A stretch of 50,366 nt of DNA. Origin: Pseudomonadota bacterium (GTDB lineage Bacteria > Pseudomonadota > Gammaproteobacteria > Pseudomonadales > Moraxellaceae). Under the pieces are notes generated by a model. The model ran no database searches. It saw only the letters and a list, made by a program, of their open reading frames with translations, and was not told the DNA's origin. Of the stretch, positions 44,685 to 50,366 are shown piece after piece; positions within the stretch are counted from its first letter, which is position 1, and every line of letters starts with the position of its first letter. A program made the translations under genes and the position numbers. Where the stretch lies: the NCBI GenBank assembly GCA_021781515.1, contig JAJXWR010000008.1:1-50366 (forward strand). The letters run 5' to 3'.

Positions 44685-46589
44685 TTGTTCGTCTCAACAC
44701 CACTGCTGTTTTTTTTTCTGCTGCTGTATTCCTTTGTGCCTACCCCAGCCTGTGCCAGTCTGACCGAGGCTCTGGATCAGGCACAACGGATGGATTTAGC
44801 GCACCACCCCTACTGGTTGCGTCTGCTACATTACCCGGCCTCCAGGCATCGGCGAACCCTCGCAGGCAGCAAAGCGCAGGGTTCGCTGTTTTTTCTGGCC
44901 AGCACCGGAGCAAAGTCTCCAACTGCGGAACTGGTAGCGGATCTGCAAGGCTTCTACACCCCTCTTCCTGAGGGCGACAATCACCCACAATGCCGTCTGC
45001 CGGCTCGGCTGAACTGGCTCAGAGAGCAACTGGGATCACGGCTGCACGATTTACCCATTGTTCCTTGTAATCAGTACAACAAGTGGCGCGCTGCCTTGGC
45101 GACCCAACATATTAGCCTGATTTTTGCCAGTGATTACACGAACAACCCTTCTTCCATGTTTGGCCACACCTTTTTGAGACTGGATTCCGTCTGGCCCACT
45201 CCAGACCCCTTACTCAGCTATGCCATCAGCTATGCCGCCGCCACCCGCGAAACCAATGGGATTATTTTTGCCATCAAAGGCCTGAGTGGTGGTTATCCGG
45301 GGCAGTACAGCCTGATGCCCTACTATGAAAAAGTCAATCAGTACATTGCTATTGAAGACCGGGATCTCTGGGAGTACAGCCTGAACCTCAGTACGACAGA
45401 CATTGATCGCTTGTTGGCACATGTATGGGAATTGCAGGACGTGACCTTTCCCTACTATTTTTTTACCGATAATTGCGCCAATGAACTGCTGCGTTTGCTG
45501 GAAACGGCCAACCCGGCACTGCATCTTTCGTCTGGATTTAACACCTATGCCATCCCTGCCGACACCATCCGTTATGTAGTACATCACTCCCCTCTCGTCA
45601 GTTCAGTCTATTTCCGGCCGGCACACGCCACTCAGGTCCAGTACCGGATTGCCACCAATCCACCTGCCGTCAATAAGTGCGCCGCTGTCTTGTTGGCGGG
45701 GCATCCGCTGGCCAACTGCGTTTCAGTCTTGTCTAGTGCCGATGCAGCCGCCGCACTGGAAACGGCCAGTGGACTACTGGGACTGGTTCATGACACCCCC
45801 CTTGTTGATCAACCACGTCAGCACACGCTGCAACTCAGTCTGCTGCAACAGCGAGCAGCACTGGGACAGCAGATAGCTCCGGCACCAATGCCTTGGCCAA
45901 CCACCAATCCCGCTCAAGGACATGACAGTGCCGGATTCTACGCACTTACTGGCCTGCGTCAGGGCCACCCCATCCTCAATGCTGGAGGACACCCAGCCTA
46001 TCATACCGACGCAGAAGATAGCCGAGGCTACCGCCCCGGTGCCAGTATTGATTTTCTGGATCTAGAGGCACAGTACCGGGAACAGGACCGCCACCTGCAC
46101 CTGAATTCATTCACACTACTGGACATACAGTCCTATGCCGCCCGCTCCGCTTTACAGCATCCCCTGTCCTGGCAATTGCATCTGGGTGCTGAAGATATGC
46201 CGATTCAACATCAGCAACTGGATGCGGTACATACCCATGTCGTAGAAAGTGTCAGCGCCGGGATGGGGATGGCCTGGTCGACGCCCTCTCAAAACCAGAT
46301 CGTTCATGGTCTGCTTGAAACCATCAACTGGCTGGGCCCCAGTGTTACTGGAGCGGCCACCGGCGTCGGCCTGAATTTGGGTCTCACGCAACAAATAGAC
46401 AACACCCATACCCAGCTGTCCATCGAACCGTTGTGCATGACGCAATCGTTGGGGTGCTGGTGGCGTACTCAGGCCAGCTGGAACCAGACGCTGTTACGCA
46501 ACCTCAGTTTGCGCTGCGAATGGCAACGCTGGCAAAAAAACTCCAAGTCTCTGAATACACTGTCGATGGGCGTCTATCATTTTTACTGA
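44685..46589 (+). CDS. DUF4105 domain envelope protein
   Basis: The best start is a TTG at 44685, with GGAGGT seven bases upstream and a signal peptide directly after it (FVSTPLLFFFLLLYSFVPTPACA). A TTG at 44622 overlapping the DUF3015 stop would add 21 unlikely residues. The 634-residue exported protein has a DUF4105 domain (about 120-330: SLIFASDYTNNPSSMFGHTF; FPYYFFTDNCANELLRLLET) with the His and the DNCA cysteine typical of NlpC/P60-like folds, so it may be a cysteine hydrolase. A beta-rich C-terminal region, ending LNTLSMGVYHFY, could form a membrane barrel. Confidence 0.85.
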   Translation: MFVSTPLLFFFLLLYSFVPTPACASLTEALDQAQRMDLAHHPYWLRLLHYPASRHRRTLAGSKAQGSLFFLASTGAKSPTAELVADLQGFYTPLPEGDNHPQCRLPARLNWLREQLGSRLHDLPIVPCNQYNKWRAALATQHISLIFASDYTNNPSSMFGHTFLRLDSVWPTPDPLLSYAISYAAATRETNGIIFAIKGLSGGYPGQYSLMPYYEKVNQYIAIEDRDLWEYSLNLSTTDIDRLLAHVWELQDVTFPYYFFTDNCANELLRLLETANPALHLSSGFNTYAIPADTIRYVVHHSPLVSSVYFRPAHATQVQYRIATNPPAVNKCAAVLLAGHPLANCVSVLSSADAAAALETASGLLGLVHDTPLVDQPRQHTLQLSLLQQRAALGQQIAPAPMPWPTTNPAQGHDSAGFYALTGLRQGHPILNAGGHPAYHTDAEDSRGYRPGASIDFLDLEAQYREQDRHLHLNSFTLLDIQSYAARSALQHPLSWQLHLGAEDMPIQHQQLDAVHTHVVESVSAGMGMAWSTPSQNQIVHGLLETINWLGPSVTGAATGVGLNLGLTQQIDNTHTQLSIEPLCMTQSLGCWWRTQASWNQTLLRNLSLRCEWQRWQKNSKSLNTLSMGVYHFY

Positions 46590-46664
46590 GTAATGCCGGT
46601 CAATCAGCACATAGCCATGCGCAAATTGCACGCTTTGGTCATACTGATTCGCTGCGATGTTGCA

Positions 46665-47645
46665 TCAGGTGCTTTTCTGTAACCCCGTGCGAGCAGCAAT
46701 CGCTGTCACCAGCGCTGAAAAGTCATCATGGCATTGTTGCACATTGGTTTGATACGCACCGATTGCTCCATCAGCATTGGTCAAACTAAACATCGGTTTG
46801 CGAGCTTCCATAGCCATCGGCATCAAGCTGCGGTAATGTTTGAGGCGATGAATCTGGTGGTCATTAGACTCGGCAGCCTCTTCCCCTGAAACGCTGGTGC
46901 GATAGGCTATCGGCAACTGCGTCTGCCACTTGGTGTATGCCCTGGCAGAATTCCCAAAACGCTCGACTTGTTGCATCAATACATAGCCTAGCGGAGACAT
47001 ATCGCCCAGTGGCATTTCCCCAAGAGTACCGGGGGCGTATGGAAGTGCCGCCGCCCATGCGCTGCGCCACTTGCGCAACATAGGCCCCAGATTTTTCAGA
47101 CCTTGCAGCGACAGCAAATCTGGTGCTACCGGCATCAGCACATGACTGGATGCCACAAATGCAGAACGGTTGATGGCCCCCAGATTCGGGCCAACGTCCA
47201 ACAACACCACATCGGCTTGATACCGTTTTGCCGCTTCGTGAATCACTCGCCAGAACGCAGTGGTAACACGAAACGTACGTTCACACCCATCAAGGCAGCG
47301 TGGCCATCCGGTAGAAAGCGCCTCTTCGATCGGTGAAAGTGCCGGGTTCCCCACCAGCAACCCCAAGAGATCGCCTAATGGCTCTATATGTACCGGACAC
47401 ACATCGCCAGTACCGTTAAACAAGGGAGCCACTGCACCATACATCGTGAGAGCATGCTCATCATCGAGCCACAACGCCTCAAGCCTCGATTCGTCCAGCG
47501 CCATGCTTGACAAACTGGATTGCGGATCGAGATCCACTGCCAAAACACGAAACCCCTTTTCCGCAAACATGAAAGCACTGTGATAAACGAGTGACGTTTT
47601 GCCCACCCCCCCTCTGTTATTAAAAAATGTGATGTGCGCCGTCAT
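46665..47645 (-). CDS. ParA/MinD-like ATPase
   Basis: The 326-residue product is a deviant Walker-A ATPase: FFNNRGGVGKTSLVYHSAFM at residues 7-26, with Arg where the signature Lys usually stands, RVLAVDLDPQSSLSSMAL, and VVLLDVGPNLGAINRSAFVA. No ParB is encoded nearby and no helix-turn-helix precedes the ATPase, so plasmid partition is only one option. The ATG overlaps the stop of the upstream AlbA_2 gene by 4 nt, so the two proteins probably act together. The DNA lies in an accessory stretch next to an interrupted mntA gene. Confidence 0.85.
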   Translation of the reverse strand: MTAHITFFNNRGGVGKTSLVYHSAFMFAEKGFRVLAVDLDPQSSLSSMALDESRLEALWLDDEHALTMYGAVAPLFNGTGDVCPVHIEPLGDLLGLLVGNPALSPIEEALSTGWPRCLDGCERTFRVTTAFWRVIHEAAKRYQADVVLLDVGPNLGAINRSAFVASSHVLMPVAPDLLSLQGLKNLGPMLRKWRSAWAAALPYAPGTLGEMPLGDMSPLGYVLMQQVERFGNSARAYTKWQTQLPIAYRTSVSGEEAAESNDHQIHRLKHYRSLMPMAMEARKPMFSLTNADGAIGAYQTNVQQCHDDFSALVTAIAARTGLQKST

Positions 47646-48844
47646 GTCTCGTCCCCTTTAATGAATGCAGCCACCATGCCGGGCTGTACCTCAAAGCGCA
47701 ACCGCTGACCCAGCGCTTTGCGCGCTATGGCAATTCCGGCACCAAAGCGCTGCACATAGCCCAAGGCACGCATCGCCTCGGCCAGATCAGGATTACGATA
47801 GTCGGTAATGCCGGGTTGACCAAAGTTCTCTGGGGTTACGCAACCGAAGGAACCACCGGGATTGTGAATCTCAATGCGGTCATCAAACCAGTACACTCTC
47901 ACTGGAGTGTTCGTTGCCTCATAGCTTCTGTGCATAAAAGCATTACGTACTAACTGCCGCAAGGCATTCATTGGATACGTTTCACGGCGATCTTCTGTGG
48001 CAACATCGCTGAACCGCACACCACGAAAATTATGTGCAGCAAGCTTTTCTTCCAGCCGCCGAATCTGGTCGGCCACCGTGCCATGAATCGGTTCATCATC
48101 CATCACTGGTGCGGTCAGATCACCACCTGCCAGCCGCAGAAATTGTGCATAGGCCCCAGGTAACCATTCCGAGGGCGATTTGCCGATAATTAGCAACCCC
48201 AATGTAGTCGGCGTCGGTTCTTCTTCTCCAATCACCATTTTGGTTGCAGCCAACCTTTGTTCATAGCTTCGGCCATTTGCCTCCAACACGTCACGTGCAA
48301 CAAGCGATGGCAAATATTCCTGCTCGAAGCGTAGCCGATTGAGATCCGAAAGGTCAGCACCACGCACCGGCTGCACATCGAAAGGCCGATCGCGATGACG
48401 GCGACGCTCGTTGAGTAGGCGCTCGTCCTGTGCCGTCGCGAGACCCCTGCGAGGCCCCCATCGTACATGAATTCGCCCTTGGTAACGCACGGGAGGTGTA
48501 TCGCAAGGTAAGACGGTGATTACCGCCACCCGGCTACCACGCAATAATTTTTTTTCCACAAATAATGTCGGTGGCGGCACGATATTTCCGTCGGTCTTGA
48601 TACTGGCAAGGCTCAACAACAGTTCATCACTTACAACAAAATCGGGAATAATTGTTCCATCGTCGTGTACACCGATCAAAAGCACGCCAGGCACACCATG
48701 TCCTGCCAGATCATTAGCAAATGCACAGACAGCCTCTCGCACTTTTCTTGGGAAATCTCCCTGAAAAGACTGTTTGCGCTCCACACAATCTGACTCCAGG
48801 TCAGCCATCATGGCTTCCAGTTGTATGTCGCTGTAATAACTCAT
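47642..48844 (-). CDS. AlbA_2 (Schlafen-like) domain ATP-binding protein
   Basis: The ATG at 48844 with AGGTG upstream gives a 400-residue product; the frame extends 42 codons further without support. An AlbA_2-type domain lies at about 10-130 (ESDCVERKQSF; AVCAFANDLAGHGVPGVLLI). A C-terminal GHKL-like ATP-binding part and winged helix follow (MNALRQLVRNAFMHRSYEAT; DDRIEIHNPGGSFG). This is the layout of the COG2865-type putative regulators, some of which serve in defence or toxin-antitoxin systems. It is translationally coupled to the ParA-like gene. Confidence 0.82.
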   Translation of the reverse strand: MSYYSDIQLEAMMADLESDCVERKQSFQGDFPRKVREAVCAFANDLAGHGVPGVLLIGVHDDGTIIPDFVVSDELLLSLASIKTDGNIVPPPTLFVEKKLLRGSRVAVITVLPCDTPPVRYQGRIHVRWGPRRGLATAQDERLLNERRRHRDRPFDVQPVRGADLSDLNRLRFEQEYLPSLVARDVLEANGRSYEQRLAATKMVIGEEEPTPTTLGLLIIGKSPSEWLPGAYAQFLRLAGGDLTAPVMDDEPIHGTVADQIRRLEEKLAAHNFRGVRFSDVATEDRRETYPMNALRQLVRNAFMHRSYEATNTPVRVYWFDDRIEIHNPGGSFGCVTPENFGQPGITDYRNPDLAEAMRALGYVQRFGAGIAIARKALGQRLRFEVQPGMVAAFIKGDET

Positions 48845-49076
48845 TACACCTACTGTTCCTAAAATAGTTACACCTAGCTGCGCATAAGATTGATCCGCAT
48901 TTGGTTGATATCGGTACGAAGAAAACCGCAACGCCCCAGCAACCTTGACATCAAGGTTTTTATGAGTCACTGTACGTTCGCAGATCGTCCGCTCCTACTG
49001 GTCGATATGGCAACTATCCATGTGGATAATACAGCGAAATAATAGTAAAAATTCATGGGTATTCGGAAATACTTGA

Positions 49077-49105
49077 TTGATTCCTCCCCGTTGTGTGAGT
49101 ATAGT
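49077..49105 (+). promoter_or_regulatory. Promoter of the MNT nucleotidyltransferase gene
   Basis: TTGATT (49077-49082) and TATAGT (49100-49105) are exactly 17 nt apart, putting the start near 49112 and the ATG 25 nt later. It is divergent from the AlbA_2/ParA pair, whose start is about 230 nt to the left. Confidence 0.6.
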
Positions 49106-49136
49106 CAAGTCGGATAATTTGATTGATAGGCGCACC

Positions 49137-49418
49137 ATGCACACCCTTGCAAATCATCCGCTCGATGCAGCAACCACACAGACGGTACTGGCCTTTCTTG
49201 AACGCGTAGCAGCAGTTTTTCCGGTGCGCAGTGCCATTCTGTTCGGCAGTCGTGCGCGAGGTGAGTTTCATCGCGATAGCGATGTGGATGTGGCGGTTTT
49301 ACTTTCCGGCCATAGCGATCAATTCATGGCAGCGAAAATAGCAATGTCTGACATGGCTTTCGATCTGACACTCCCCATGGCTAAAGCCAGGGGGTTCTCT
49401 GTTTATCTTGGGGCATAG
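49137..49418 (+). pseudogene. mntA: MNT-domain nucleotidyltransferase (MntA-like antitoxin), truncated
   Basis: From the ATG at 49137 (AGG seven bases upstream) the product shows the minimal nucleotidyltransferase fold: G37-S38 in LFGSRARGEFHRDSDVDVAV, with D49 and D51 as the metal ligands in the GSx10DxD pattern. Such proteins are antitoxins that AMPylate HEPN toxins. True homology ends at DMAFDL (about 49366), where the end of an IS200/IS605-like element begins; the last 17 codons are read from the element. The missing part and any HEPN gene would lie beyond the right edge. Confidence 0.8.
49366..49393 (-). mobile_element. Right end hairpin of an IS200/IS605-like element
   Basis: The segment starting TGACACTCCCC is followed by the stem TGGCT-AA-AGCCA (49378-49389), extended by CCCC/GGGG with one bulge. 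On the minus strand this follows the TnpB-like gene, as expected for the right end, which also forms the scaffold of the guide RNA. The element boundary coincides with the break in mntA. Confidence 0.65.
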
Positions 49419-49428
49419 GATATTACTC

Positions 49429-50366
49429 CTACTCAGACCAAGCAGAGAACTTTTGACGCAAACTGCTCCAAGGACTCGACGTTCCTCCCTTTGGCGACCC
49501 ATTGAGTGTCCCTTTTTGCAAAGAAGCGGCTCGACGACAACGGTGCCAAACGGGTTTGCAGTTTATCGGCTGACACGGGTTCGCGCCAAGGCGTGTGCGG
49601 GGCCTGTGGGTACTCGTGCTCATCACGCCGTCTCTCGGTACAAACAGTTGTTTCTCCCGAAGCGATGGCGCAAGGAGCTGCCATGCCACTTCTAACACTT
49701 CAGGATCATGCGACCAACGCTCAACGACGTTGCCATCCACTCTGGCGGTAGACCGCACGGCATTTTTTGCTAAAAATGCCGAGTAAATATCACGGTCTAC
49801 TTTTCCACGTCCATCTCCAAAGATATGGACGCGTACACGCAGACTTTTCTTGGTATAGGTCTGCGTGCTGTGGTCGTATTGGGAGGTCTTCAACTGCCGG
49901 ACGTTTACTGCGATGGTATCCCCGCAGGCTCTTTCAGCCTTCCGTTTCAACTCGCTCATAAATCGTCCTGGGGCGCGTATACTCACACTACGCCCATAGT
50001 TCTTTTGTAGCGATAACACACTCACATTATCGTGCCGCCATGTTCTGGCAACACTGAGTAAGTCATTAATGTCTGCGCCATGTGAATTGGCTCGGCACTT
50101 CGTTGCCTGCGCCTGCAAGGCAGCAATCATGTGCTGTGTCTTCTGCTGTGCCACAGATTGCTTCCATTGCTTCCTGCCCTTGATCACCGTTCCCAAGGCC
50201 ACCACTGTCTTGTTCCCTTGGCGTTTAAGCACGTCAGCCTTGAAGTTGTCTGGATTATTGGCTCGCAGCTGCCGAGACAGGCGACGTTGCAGACGTTCAA
50301 TTTTTTGGGCTGGATTGTTCACCTGTTCGCAGAAATTAAATATCCCTGCTGTATGTTCTGTAACCC
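49429..50366 (-). CDS. tnpB: TnpB-like nuclease/transposase, runs off the window edge
   Basis: The frame is open to the right edge and reads FCEQVNNPAQKIERLQRRLS, the conserved helix RQLRANNPDNF, GRKQWKQSVAQQKTQHMIAA, the strand NVSVLSLQKNYGRSVSIRAP, and RDIYSAFLAKN with the final catalytic Asp. The zinc-ribbon cysteines usually found between LKTSQYDH and VHIFGDG are absent, as in one TnpB subgroup. Near 49620-49690 the better-looking tail (REPVSADKLQ... ESLEQFASKVLCLV, ending at 49433) is in another frame, so a frameshift is likely. The N-terminal part is outside the window. With the end hairpin at 49366 it forms one element. Confidence 0.7.
   Translation of the reverse strand, partial: VTEHTAGIFNFCEQVNNPAQKIERLQRRLSRQLRANNPDNFKADVLKRQGNKTVVALGTVIKGRKQWKQSVAQQKTQHMIAALQAQATKCRANSHGADINDLLSVARTWRHDNVSVLSLQKNYGRSVSIRAPGRFMSELKRKAERACGDTIAVNVRQLKTSQYDHSTQTYTKKSLRVRVHIFGDGRGKVDRDIYSAFLAKNAVRSTARVDGNVVERWSHDPEVLEVAWQLLAPSLREKQLFVPRDGVMSTSTHRPRTRLGANPCQPINCKPVWHRCRRAASLQKGTLNGSPKGGTSSPWSSLRQKFSAWSE

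Follow-up and report, generated by a model that had tools for sequence, protein, structure and literature searches.

A ParA-family ATPase in a recurrent operon with a predicted Schlafen-type RNase, and with other effector enzymes in sister clades

Two genes on the reverse strand of a Moraxellaceae contig (Pseudomonadota bacterium, GenBank assembly GCA_021781515.1, contig JAJXWR010000008.1, positions 1 to 50,366; this whole stretch of 50,366 nt is hereafter the window) encode a Schlafen/AlbA_2-type protein with a GHKL-type ATPase domain, here called SLFN, and a ParA-like ATPase. We find that the two form a real, recurrent two-gene system that is no accident of one genome, that the residues of a predicted catalytic site are conserved among its relatives, and that related ParAs exchange this partner, clade by clade, for SIR2, HEPN or RelA/SpoT enzymes. 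From the sequences we infer an RNase activity, a switch role for ParA, a trigger and a role in defence. On balance, we lean towards a self-contained two-gene shutdown module, in which a Schlafen-type RNase would be set by the nucleotide switch of ParA and the effector would be exchanged between ParA clades.

A recurrent SLFN-ParA operon

The first gene of the pair (47642..48844, reverse strand) has its longest frame from a GTG at 48970; the alignment of relatives begins at the ATG at 48844, which makes a protein of 400 aa. Pfam recognises SLFN_AlbA_2 in its N-terminal part (1.4e-10; PF04326, 42.1 bits against a cut-off of 25.3) and HATPase_c_4 in its C-terminal part (1.6e-13). Its conserved partner (46665..47645, reverse strand) starts with ATG and encodes a ParA-like ATPase of 326 aa that matches AAA_31 (7.4e-22) and CbiA (1.6e-12). 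The genes share four nucleotides, ATGA (47642..47645, reverse strand), an arrangement indicative of translational coupling. An earlier description made from the letters alone (the sequence-only reading) had recognised two ATP-dependent genes with a 4-nt overlap; both open reading frames (ORFs) are as it gave them, and the 'ATP-binding' part of the first is the GHKL-type domain. Compared with the relatives at one other locus (L029), the ratio of nonsynonymous to synonymous substitution rates (dN/dS) is 0.079 for SLFN and 0.149 for ParA, values that are approximate since dS exceeds 1, and both window genes are still under purifying selection. The same genome holds a second pair on contig C135 (L007 9626-11844), in which the ParA frame is open (52% identity, and Asn for the signature Lys discussed below) and the SLFN gene is frameshifted.

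Among 274 genomes of the class, the window's own included, this ParA was found in eight other genomes at E <= 1e-40, with an SLFN gene directly upstream in seven; in the exception (L024), a type ISP-like methylase adjoins ParA instead. We also scanned genome contigs with an SLFN alignment and analysed the best 80 of at least 531 confirmed relatives, 14 of the 80 being represented by stretches shorter than 9 kb. A same-strand ParA lies directly downstream in 66 of these 80 loci, with its start codon at a 4-nt overlap in 57 of the 66; three of the 66 ParAs are shortened or at a contig end (L039, L085, L105). Adjacency is thus not unique to the window's genome, a question on which the sequence-only reading had hung its proposal. 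The junction is exactly -4 nt in 76 of 85 full SLFN-ParA pairs, and by record titles the pairs are spread over 16 named phyla. The distance matrices of SLFN and ParA are correlated (Mantel r 0.638 over 84 pairs, with none of 999 permutations as high), as joint inheritance would produce. Taken together, the recurrence, the -4 junctions and the shared inheritance show that the adjacency, which is far beyond chance, is old and constrained. Four viral contigs carry an SLFN relative, and one of these also carries ParA.

What kind of protein is SLFN? An AlphaFold model of the 400-aa protein has a predicted local distance difference test score (pLDDT) of 92.9 and a predicted template modelling score (pTM) of 0.75, superseding an earlier model built from eight sequences (pLDDT 64.6). 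At full length, the model matches 3lmm, an uncharacterised protein from Corynebacterium diphtheriae (Foldseek 2.9e-19; VIA Z 22), with a root-mean-square deviation (rmsd) of 14.5, so the arrangement of the domains differs. Residues 1-153 superpose on the SAMD9 tRNase 9o0d (Z 9.4, rmsd 3.9, 144 residues), and Foldseek places the N-terminus with SLFN13 (5yd0) and SLFN11 (7fex) at probability 1.00, with E only about 1e-3. The C-terminus resembles SpoIIAB and histidine kinases (Z about 10). Across 95 aligned relatives, Glu17 (codon 48794..48796, reverse strand) is conserved in 94 and Glu22 (48779..48781, reverse strand) in all 95; Asp61 (48662..48664, reverse strand), the likely third acidic residue, is D in 83, N in 11 and E in 1. 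The GHKL residues N301 and H305 are kept in 95 of 95. We tentatively place E17 and E22 in the active site by the E-x4-E spacing of SLFN11/13, and by this analogy E17, E22 and D61 would form the predicted SLFN active site. The natural reading of these features is that SLFN is a predicted RNase, for tRNA or another RNA, with its own ATP-binding control domain.

The partner is a ParA by its sequence features. A profile of the family, 328 positions long, matches the solved structure 3pg5 at 2.3e-76 (positions 1-323) and the segregation protein 1wcv at 1.2e-24, and K16, D38, D40 and D150 are kept in 42 of 42 sequences; judged in this way, the window protein has the ParA fold, the Walker A Lys and the conserved Asp residues. 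Its P-loop, NNRGGVGKT (47595..47621, reverse strand), carries an Arg at position 11 (codon AGA, 47613-47615, reverse strand), so that RGGVGKT lacks the signature Lys of KGGxGK[ST], which the family as a whole has. The sequence-only reading had singled out this Arg. The substitution is real in the window, yet it is no feature of the system: among 105 family ParAs the signature position is Lys in 102, Arg in the window protein, Asn in the same genome's second copy and Ala in one more. We therefore rejected the Arg as a defining trait. It is a local oddity, and the ATP cycle of the window ParA may differ as a result.

Effector partners of the ParA family

The ParA family has partners other than SLFN. 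Of 29 plasmid records with a ParA match, we looked at 8, which hold weaker relatives of the window ParA. The next gene is SIR2 in three of them, with a 4-nt overlap (Vibrio ponticus, Salmonella and Spirosoma), and HEPN in one, with a 1-nt overlap (Burkholderia glumae); three have no recognised partner (H1, H20, H28) and one is unannotated (H5). When 20,395 E. coli records were searched with the Salmonella ParA-SIR2 version, none matched. In sets of genomes from three phyla, family ParAs occur in 34 of 398 genomes of the window's phylum (own genome included), in 18 of 296 of the phylum of a 'Bacteroidetes' record and in 27 of 194 of the phylum of a Synechococcus record. Of 30 loci returned from the first set, 20 have SLFN upstream of ParA (broken copies counted here and below); SIR2 follows ParA in 4, HEPN in 3 and RelA/SpoT in 1, one locus has no recognised partner and one reaches a contig end. 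Of 20 loci from the second set, SLFN precedes ParA in 14, and SIR2, HEPN and RelA/SpoT each follow it in 1, with no recognised partner in 2 and a contig end in 1. Of 20 loci from the third set, 11 have SLFN upstream and 7 have HEPN downstream, 2 have no recognised partner, and none has SIR2, RelA/SpoT or a contig end. Two loci of the second set (L168 and L175) are pieces of one locus, and one of the first (L124) is the second copy of the window's genome.

These effector assignments are supported by domain matches and motifs. Pfam gives RelA_SpoT at 2.7e-14 and 5.3e-17, SIR2_2 at 6e-19 to 8.9e-28 (four scanned) and HEPN_RiboL-PSP at 3.9e-7 to 1.9e-16 (seven scanned). The HEPN motif R-x4-H is kept in 12 of 12 ParA-linked HEPN proteins; the SIR2 motifs GxGxS and [ST]xN[FY]D are kept in 8 of 8, and the His motif, as formulated here, in 4 of 8. 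ParA comes first and the effector second in the SIR2, HEPN and RelA types, the reverse of the SLFN type, and the junction lies between -44 and +13 nt in 22 of 22 non-SLFN pairs (longest start used). One of the four effector types lies in the flanks (<=1.5 kb) of 62 of 69 family ParAs, compared to 0 of 30 generic AAA_31 ParAs, a comparison in which some of the tested loci had also gone into the SIR2, HEPN and RelA profiles, and in which most controls are the top AAA_31 match of their genome, probably chromosomal Soj. Upstream of one ParA-RelA/SpoT pair lies a 183-aa gene of unclear family (L145 917-1465) that overlaps ParA by 4 nt, and a gene of similar size (193 aa) precedes the pair at L228.

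We built a ParA tree of 67 rows by a 'quick' method, with three distant ParAs as outgroup and the SLFN type thinned to 36 of 103 (L148 and L169 are not in the tree). The SIR2-linked rows form one group (7 rows, support 99), as do the HEPN-linked rows (12 rows, support 89) and the SLFN-linked rows (support 99, with two rows lacking SLFN within); the RelA row is a long branch. This grouping indicates that the choice of partner is inherited by the ParA clade, with few changes. Beside the HEPN-linked ParAs, L116, L172 and L173 form a sister group without a recognised partner; at L172, ParA is followed by a 346-aa ORF without a Pfam match. Within the HEPN-type clade, five ParAs (L115, L116, L143, L144, L146) have the P-loop KGGVSKT, not KGGVGKT, a clade-specific variant of Walker A.

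A ParA protein is commonly taken for a motor of DNA partition, and a lone one for the trace of a former plasmid. Read in this way, the window pair would serve the maintenance of an element: ParA would move or position DNA, and the AlbA_2 protein would be a DNA-binding adaptor in place of ParB. The ParA fold and P-loop fit this, as do the TnpB-like fragment and the broken MNT gene beside the window pair and the occurrence of one pair on a Cupriavidus necator plasmid (L083). The partner, however, is replaced by SIR2, HEPN and RelA/SpoT enzymes in sister ParA clades; a search for centromere-like repeats found no direct repeat families of >=14 nt in 46400-49440; an SLFN match at E <= 1e-20 occurs in only 1 of 72,556 PLSDB records, with 28.6% identity; and the genome has other ParA genes, one of them a strong AAA_31 match on C135. 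We accordingly rejected plasmid partition or maintenance as the principal explanation and regard it as most improbable. The sequence-only reading was right that this ParA lacks a ParB partner, the adjoining gene being SLFN in the window and in relatives; its suggestion of mobile-element maintenance, taken as partition, is not supported by these findings, the one plasmid pair notwithstanding.

The pairing of one ParA family with other shutdown enzymes instead suggests a common switch, ParA, to which exchangeable effectors are coupled. Under the module reading that we favour, the first gene would supply a predicted Schlafen-type RNase fused to a GHKL ATP-binding regulatory domain, and the translationally coupled ParA would bind the enzyme or its target DNA complex. 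Depending on its ATP state, ParA would keep the enzyme in check or set it off. A shift of that state, triggered most likely by an invading phage or plasmid, would stop translation. In sister clades, the same ParA family would act on a SIR2 NADase, a HEPN RNase or a RelA/SpoT nucleotide synthetase.

A wider proposal, which we put forward tentatively and consider possible though more doubtful, makes one ParA family the common switch of a whole class of shutdown modules with at least four effectors. Here, DNA-bound ParA dimers, driven by nucleotide, would detect foreign DNA that is replicating or condensed and would then free or switch on the enzyme coupled to them, and lone phage ParAs, in Pf1 and the P22-like SE1, would be versions for superinfection control or antidotes. 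The SE1 ParA (L255 3001-4074) belongs to the immunity region, where a CI-like repressor is close by and a gene for superinfection exclusion is not far off, and the Pf1 ParA (L254 2579-3532) is annotated as a putative regulatory protein and lies near att2. A role of these two proteins in superinfection control is possible.

By operon and phylogeny, then, a single ParA family is linked to four enzyme families that are unrelated to one another and are known as toxins or immune effectors. Should ParA be the switch of these enzymes, immune or toxin-antitoxin modules would lie hidden behind many genes annotated as 'ParA family protein' or 'AAA family ATPase'.

Loss patterns and genomic setting

Several observations weigh against a self-contained module. 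No ParA match at 1e-8 lies in the available stretch of 14 of the 80 SLFN loci, and the genomes concerned, mostly drafts, have no family ParA elsewhere in 11 cases and one in three. Eleven of the 14 ParA-less SLFN proteins stand in the 95-row SLFN tree, nested among ParA-bearing rows with at least six changes, so that the enzyme is able to exist without the switch; these 11 keep the acidic residues except for L074, which has Asn in place of D61, and L080, which has Gly in place of E17. Asn at Asp61 in 11 relatives is a further difficulty for the predicted active site. Family ParAs at L113, L116, L137, L172, L173, L183 and L187 have no recognised partner, and the distant ParA relatives in phages Pf1 and SE1 (24-27% identity) stand alone. 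Finally, a matched control gave no sign of a general enrichment in defence islands: at 1e-20 we counted 49 PADLOC families among 120 neighbours of 19 loci and 56 among 120 proteins of 18 control regions. This test is weak both ways, since its tally is of families rather than proteins and names the first 25 of them, and generic helicases and kinases inflate both sides. The 19 loci comprise 18 with the pair and one (L214) with a family ParA and no SLFN; the control proteins are 120 of 122 picked.

The loss patterns bear on a classical toxin-antitoxin system, in which the SLFN RNase would always be toxic and ParA would be its antitoxin, so that loss of the cassette or of ParA would free the toxin. 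The same logic is in print for HEPN with ParA/Soj (PMC3710099). A broken or shortened SLFN stands beside an open ParA frame in the genome's own second copy and at L121, L126 and L135 (where the ParA P-loop is itself altered, GGVGTTS), the pattern to expect of a harmless ParA and a toxic SLFN. Against it stand the ParA-less SLFN loci, most of them in genomes where no family ParA was found, and the order of the SLFN type, with the enzyme gene first and ParA second. ParA is moreover shortened or stopped beside a full SLFN frame at L085, L105 and L164, and the loss of ParA beside an intact SLFN argues against an obligate antitoxin. ParA is thus unlikely to be an antitoxin that the enzyme cannot do without; the data are better explained if ParA licenses or senses, or if it is partly redundant with the GHKL domain, and we consider the toxin-antitoxin scheme unlikely.

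A different alternative makes the pair an accessory regulator and effector of BREX-related/Hma restriction, acting only with the methylase and helicase of those systems. By tblastn, BREX-related/Hma neighbours are present at >=150 bits in 13 of the 80 SLFN loci, four of which (L035, L049, L070, L092) are the sources of the queries, and 0 of 20 control regions have any match at 1e-15. Fifteen loci matched in all; L029 (90 bits) and L090 (146 bits) were set aside because they matched by helicases only, and the helicase ORF of L029 reads like a housekeeping RapA. At L049 the pair lies between Hma genes, in the order HmaA-SLFN-ParA-HmaB-HmaC (the Hma genes score 642, 370 and 357 bits); at L035 it is embedded in a BREX-related-looking operon of mostly overlapping genes, with weak DUF499-like and PglZ-like matches; and at L092 an HKD-SNF2 helicase and a type IIG restriction-modification enzyme surround it. 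An SLFN-type protein also lies between brxC and pglX in a BREX type 1 operon on an Azotobacter salinestris plasmid (L119 3989-5452). On the other side, 67 of the 80 loci have no BREX-related/Hma genes at that score within the available stretch, short as some of these stretches are, and 3 of the 13 (L033, L036, L102) have SLFN without ParA. Many sampled pairs lie among what read as housekeeping genes, judged by the starts of the ORFs listed. We consider dependence on these systems quite unlikely. Near the window pair itself, no helicase, DNA methylase or DUF499 ATPase was recognised among the four ORFs scanned, the contig ending at 50366; relatives such as L049 do have such genes. In L033, L034, L035 and L036, a conserved protein of 166-171 aa follows ParA, or SLFN where ParA is absent, beside the BREX-related genes; its L035 copy has no NCBIfam or PADLOC match.

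The apparently housekeeping surroundings would also suit a transcriptional autoregulator with an ATPase and no role in conflict, with a DNA-binding protein of the COG2865 type that controls ParA in some housekeeping function, and proteins that combine AlbA_2 and GHKL domains are often annotated as regulators. Against such a role, the ParA family is patchy in all three phylum sets, sister ParAs are paired with toxic enzyme families, and the conserved acidic residues are as expected of a nuclease. We judge this alternative very unlikely.

Beyond the pair, a truncated MNT-type nucleotidyltransferase gene (49137..49418, forward strand; NTP_transf_2 3.2e-10) matches PDC-S09 at 4.6e-25, over model positions 4-76 of 114 only. 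It stops next to a TnpB-like fragment of a transposon, with which the contig ends (49429..50322, reverse strand) and which has a weak NF040570 match (20.7 bits, cut-off 100). Both are neighbours, and the MNT gene is not demonstrated as a part of the system. The sequence-only reading had described a broken HEPN/MNT-type gene here; the broken MNT half stands, and no HEPN gene was recognised from the MNT-type gene to the contig end at 50366.

A role of the pair in defence is plausible. The sequence-only reading had offered a defence cassette, and the exchange for SIR2, HEPN and RelA/SpoT enzymes and the occurrence in some BREX-related/Hma operons speak for it; the location in defence islands or plasmids that it proposed to look for was not borne out, with no general enrichment over matched controls and few plasmid matches.

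Relation to known systems

Database models do not capture the pair. In PADLOC, no model spans the window ParA (best 2.9e-7 over 50 residues), and the best match of SLFN (9.1e-15) is to a part of a pAgo-associated model, with no match to a system model. PADLOC models likewise do not cover the SIR2- and HEPN-type ParAs, and the one SIR2 enzyme that we scanned hits the Thoeris and Dsr models. In NCBIfam, the window ParA has only generic matches below threshold and SLFN has none. The Schlafen, SIR2 and RelA versions of the ParA module have no description in the literature searched, a body that leaves most subscription journals outside.

With ParABS systems (Soj, ParF, plasmid ParA), the window ParA shares the fold and the P-loop. 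It differs in having no ParB partner, its place being taken by SLFN here and in relatives and by SIR2, HEPN or RelA in sister clades, and its closest solved structure is 3pg5 rather than the segregation protein 1wcv. With the N-domains of vertebrate SLFN11/13 and the SAMD9 tRNase, SLFN would share the predicted fold of residues 1-153 and the E-x4-E acidic pair. It is unlike them in being bacterial, in carrying a GHKL domain at its C-terminus and in being paired with ParA, and its RNase activity is a prediction. The comparison would join the antiviral Schlafen nucleases of animals to a regulated two-gene form in bacteria.

A recent survey reports, for at least 1017 taxa, a close linkage of Schlafen RNases that have a minimal histidine kinase with BREX and BREX-related loci (Rakesh and Krishnan 2026, PMC12839542). 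These effectors are the same kind of protein as SLFN, partly in the same operons (Hma being DUF499-centred). They differ in that ParA goes unmentioned beside them, neither ParA nor MinD occurring as a whole word in the main text of that paper, and in that most SLFN loci analysed here are without such genes. The same source describes PARIS, a two-gene defence module of an OLD-ABC ATPase and a TOPRIM tRNase (PMC12839542), which likewise joins an ATPase switch and a toxic nuclease in one operon, from other ATPase and nuclease families.

The nearest published proposal is the ParA/Soj-HEPN (MAE_18760) dyad, predicted as a toxin-antitoxin system (Anantharaman et al. 2013, PMC3710099). It too is an operon of a ParA/Soj ATPase and a toxic RNase, whose activity was proposed to be set by a nucleotide-driven change of shape or by phosphorylation. 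The window pair, unlike the dyad, has a Schlafen/AlbA_2-GHKL protein and not HEPN as its effector, encoded by the first of the two genes. For the HEPN partners in our sets, HEPN_RiboL-PSP is the best match (to 1.9e-16), with MAE_28990/18760-like matches below the cut-off in two of the seven scanned, so their identity with the published dyad is unsettled; on the ParA tree, which holds our HEPN-linked ParAs and not the examples published in 2013, they sit among the relatives of the window ParA. The suggestion of the sequence-only reading that the system is undescribed holds in that no PADLOC model covers either gene, and has to yield to the 2013 proposal for the pairing of ParA with HEPN (PMC3710099). 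The pair is best described as one branch of a ParA family with four effector types, whose HEPN branch had already been proposed in the literature as a toxin-antitoxin dyad.

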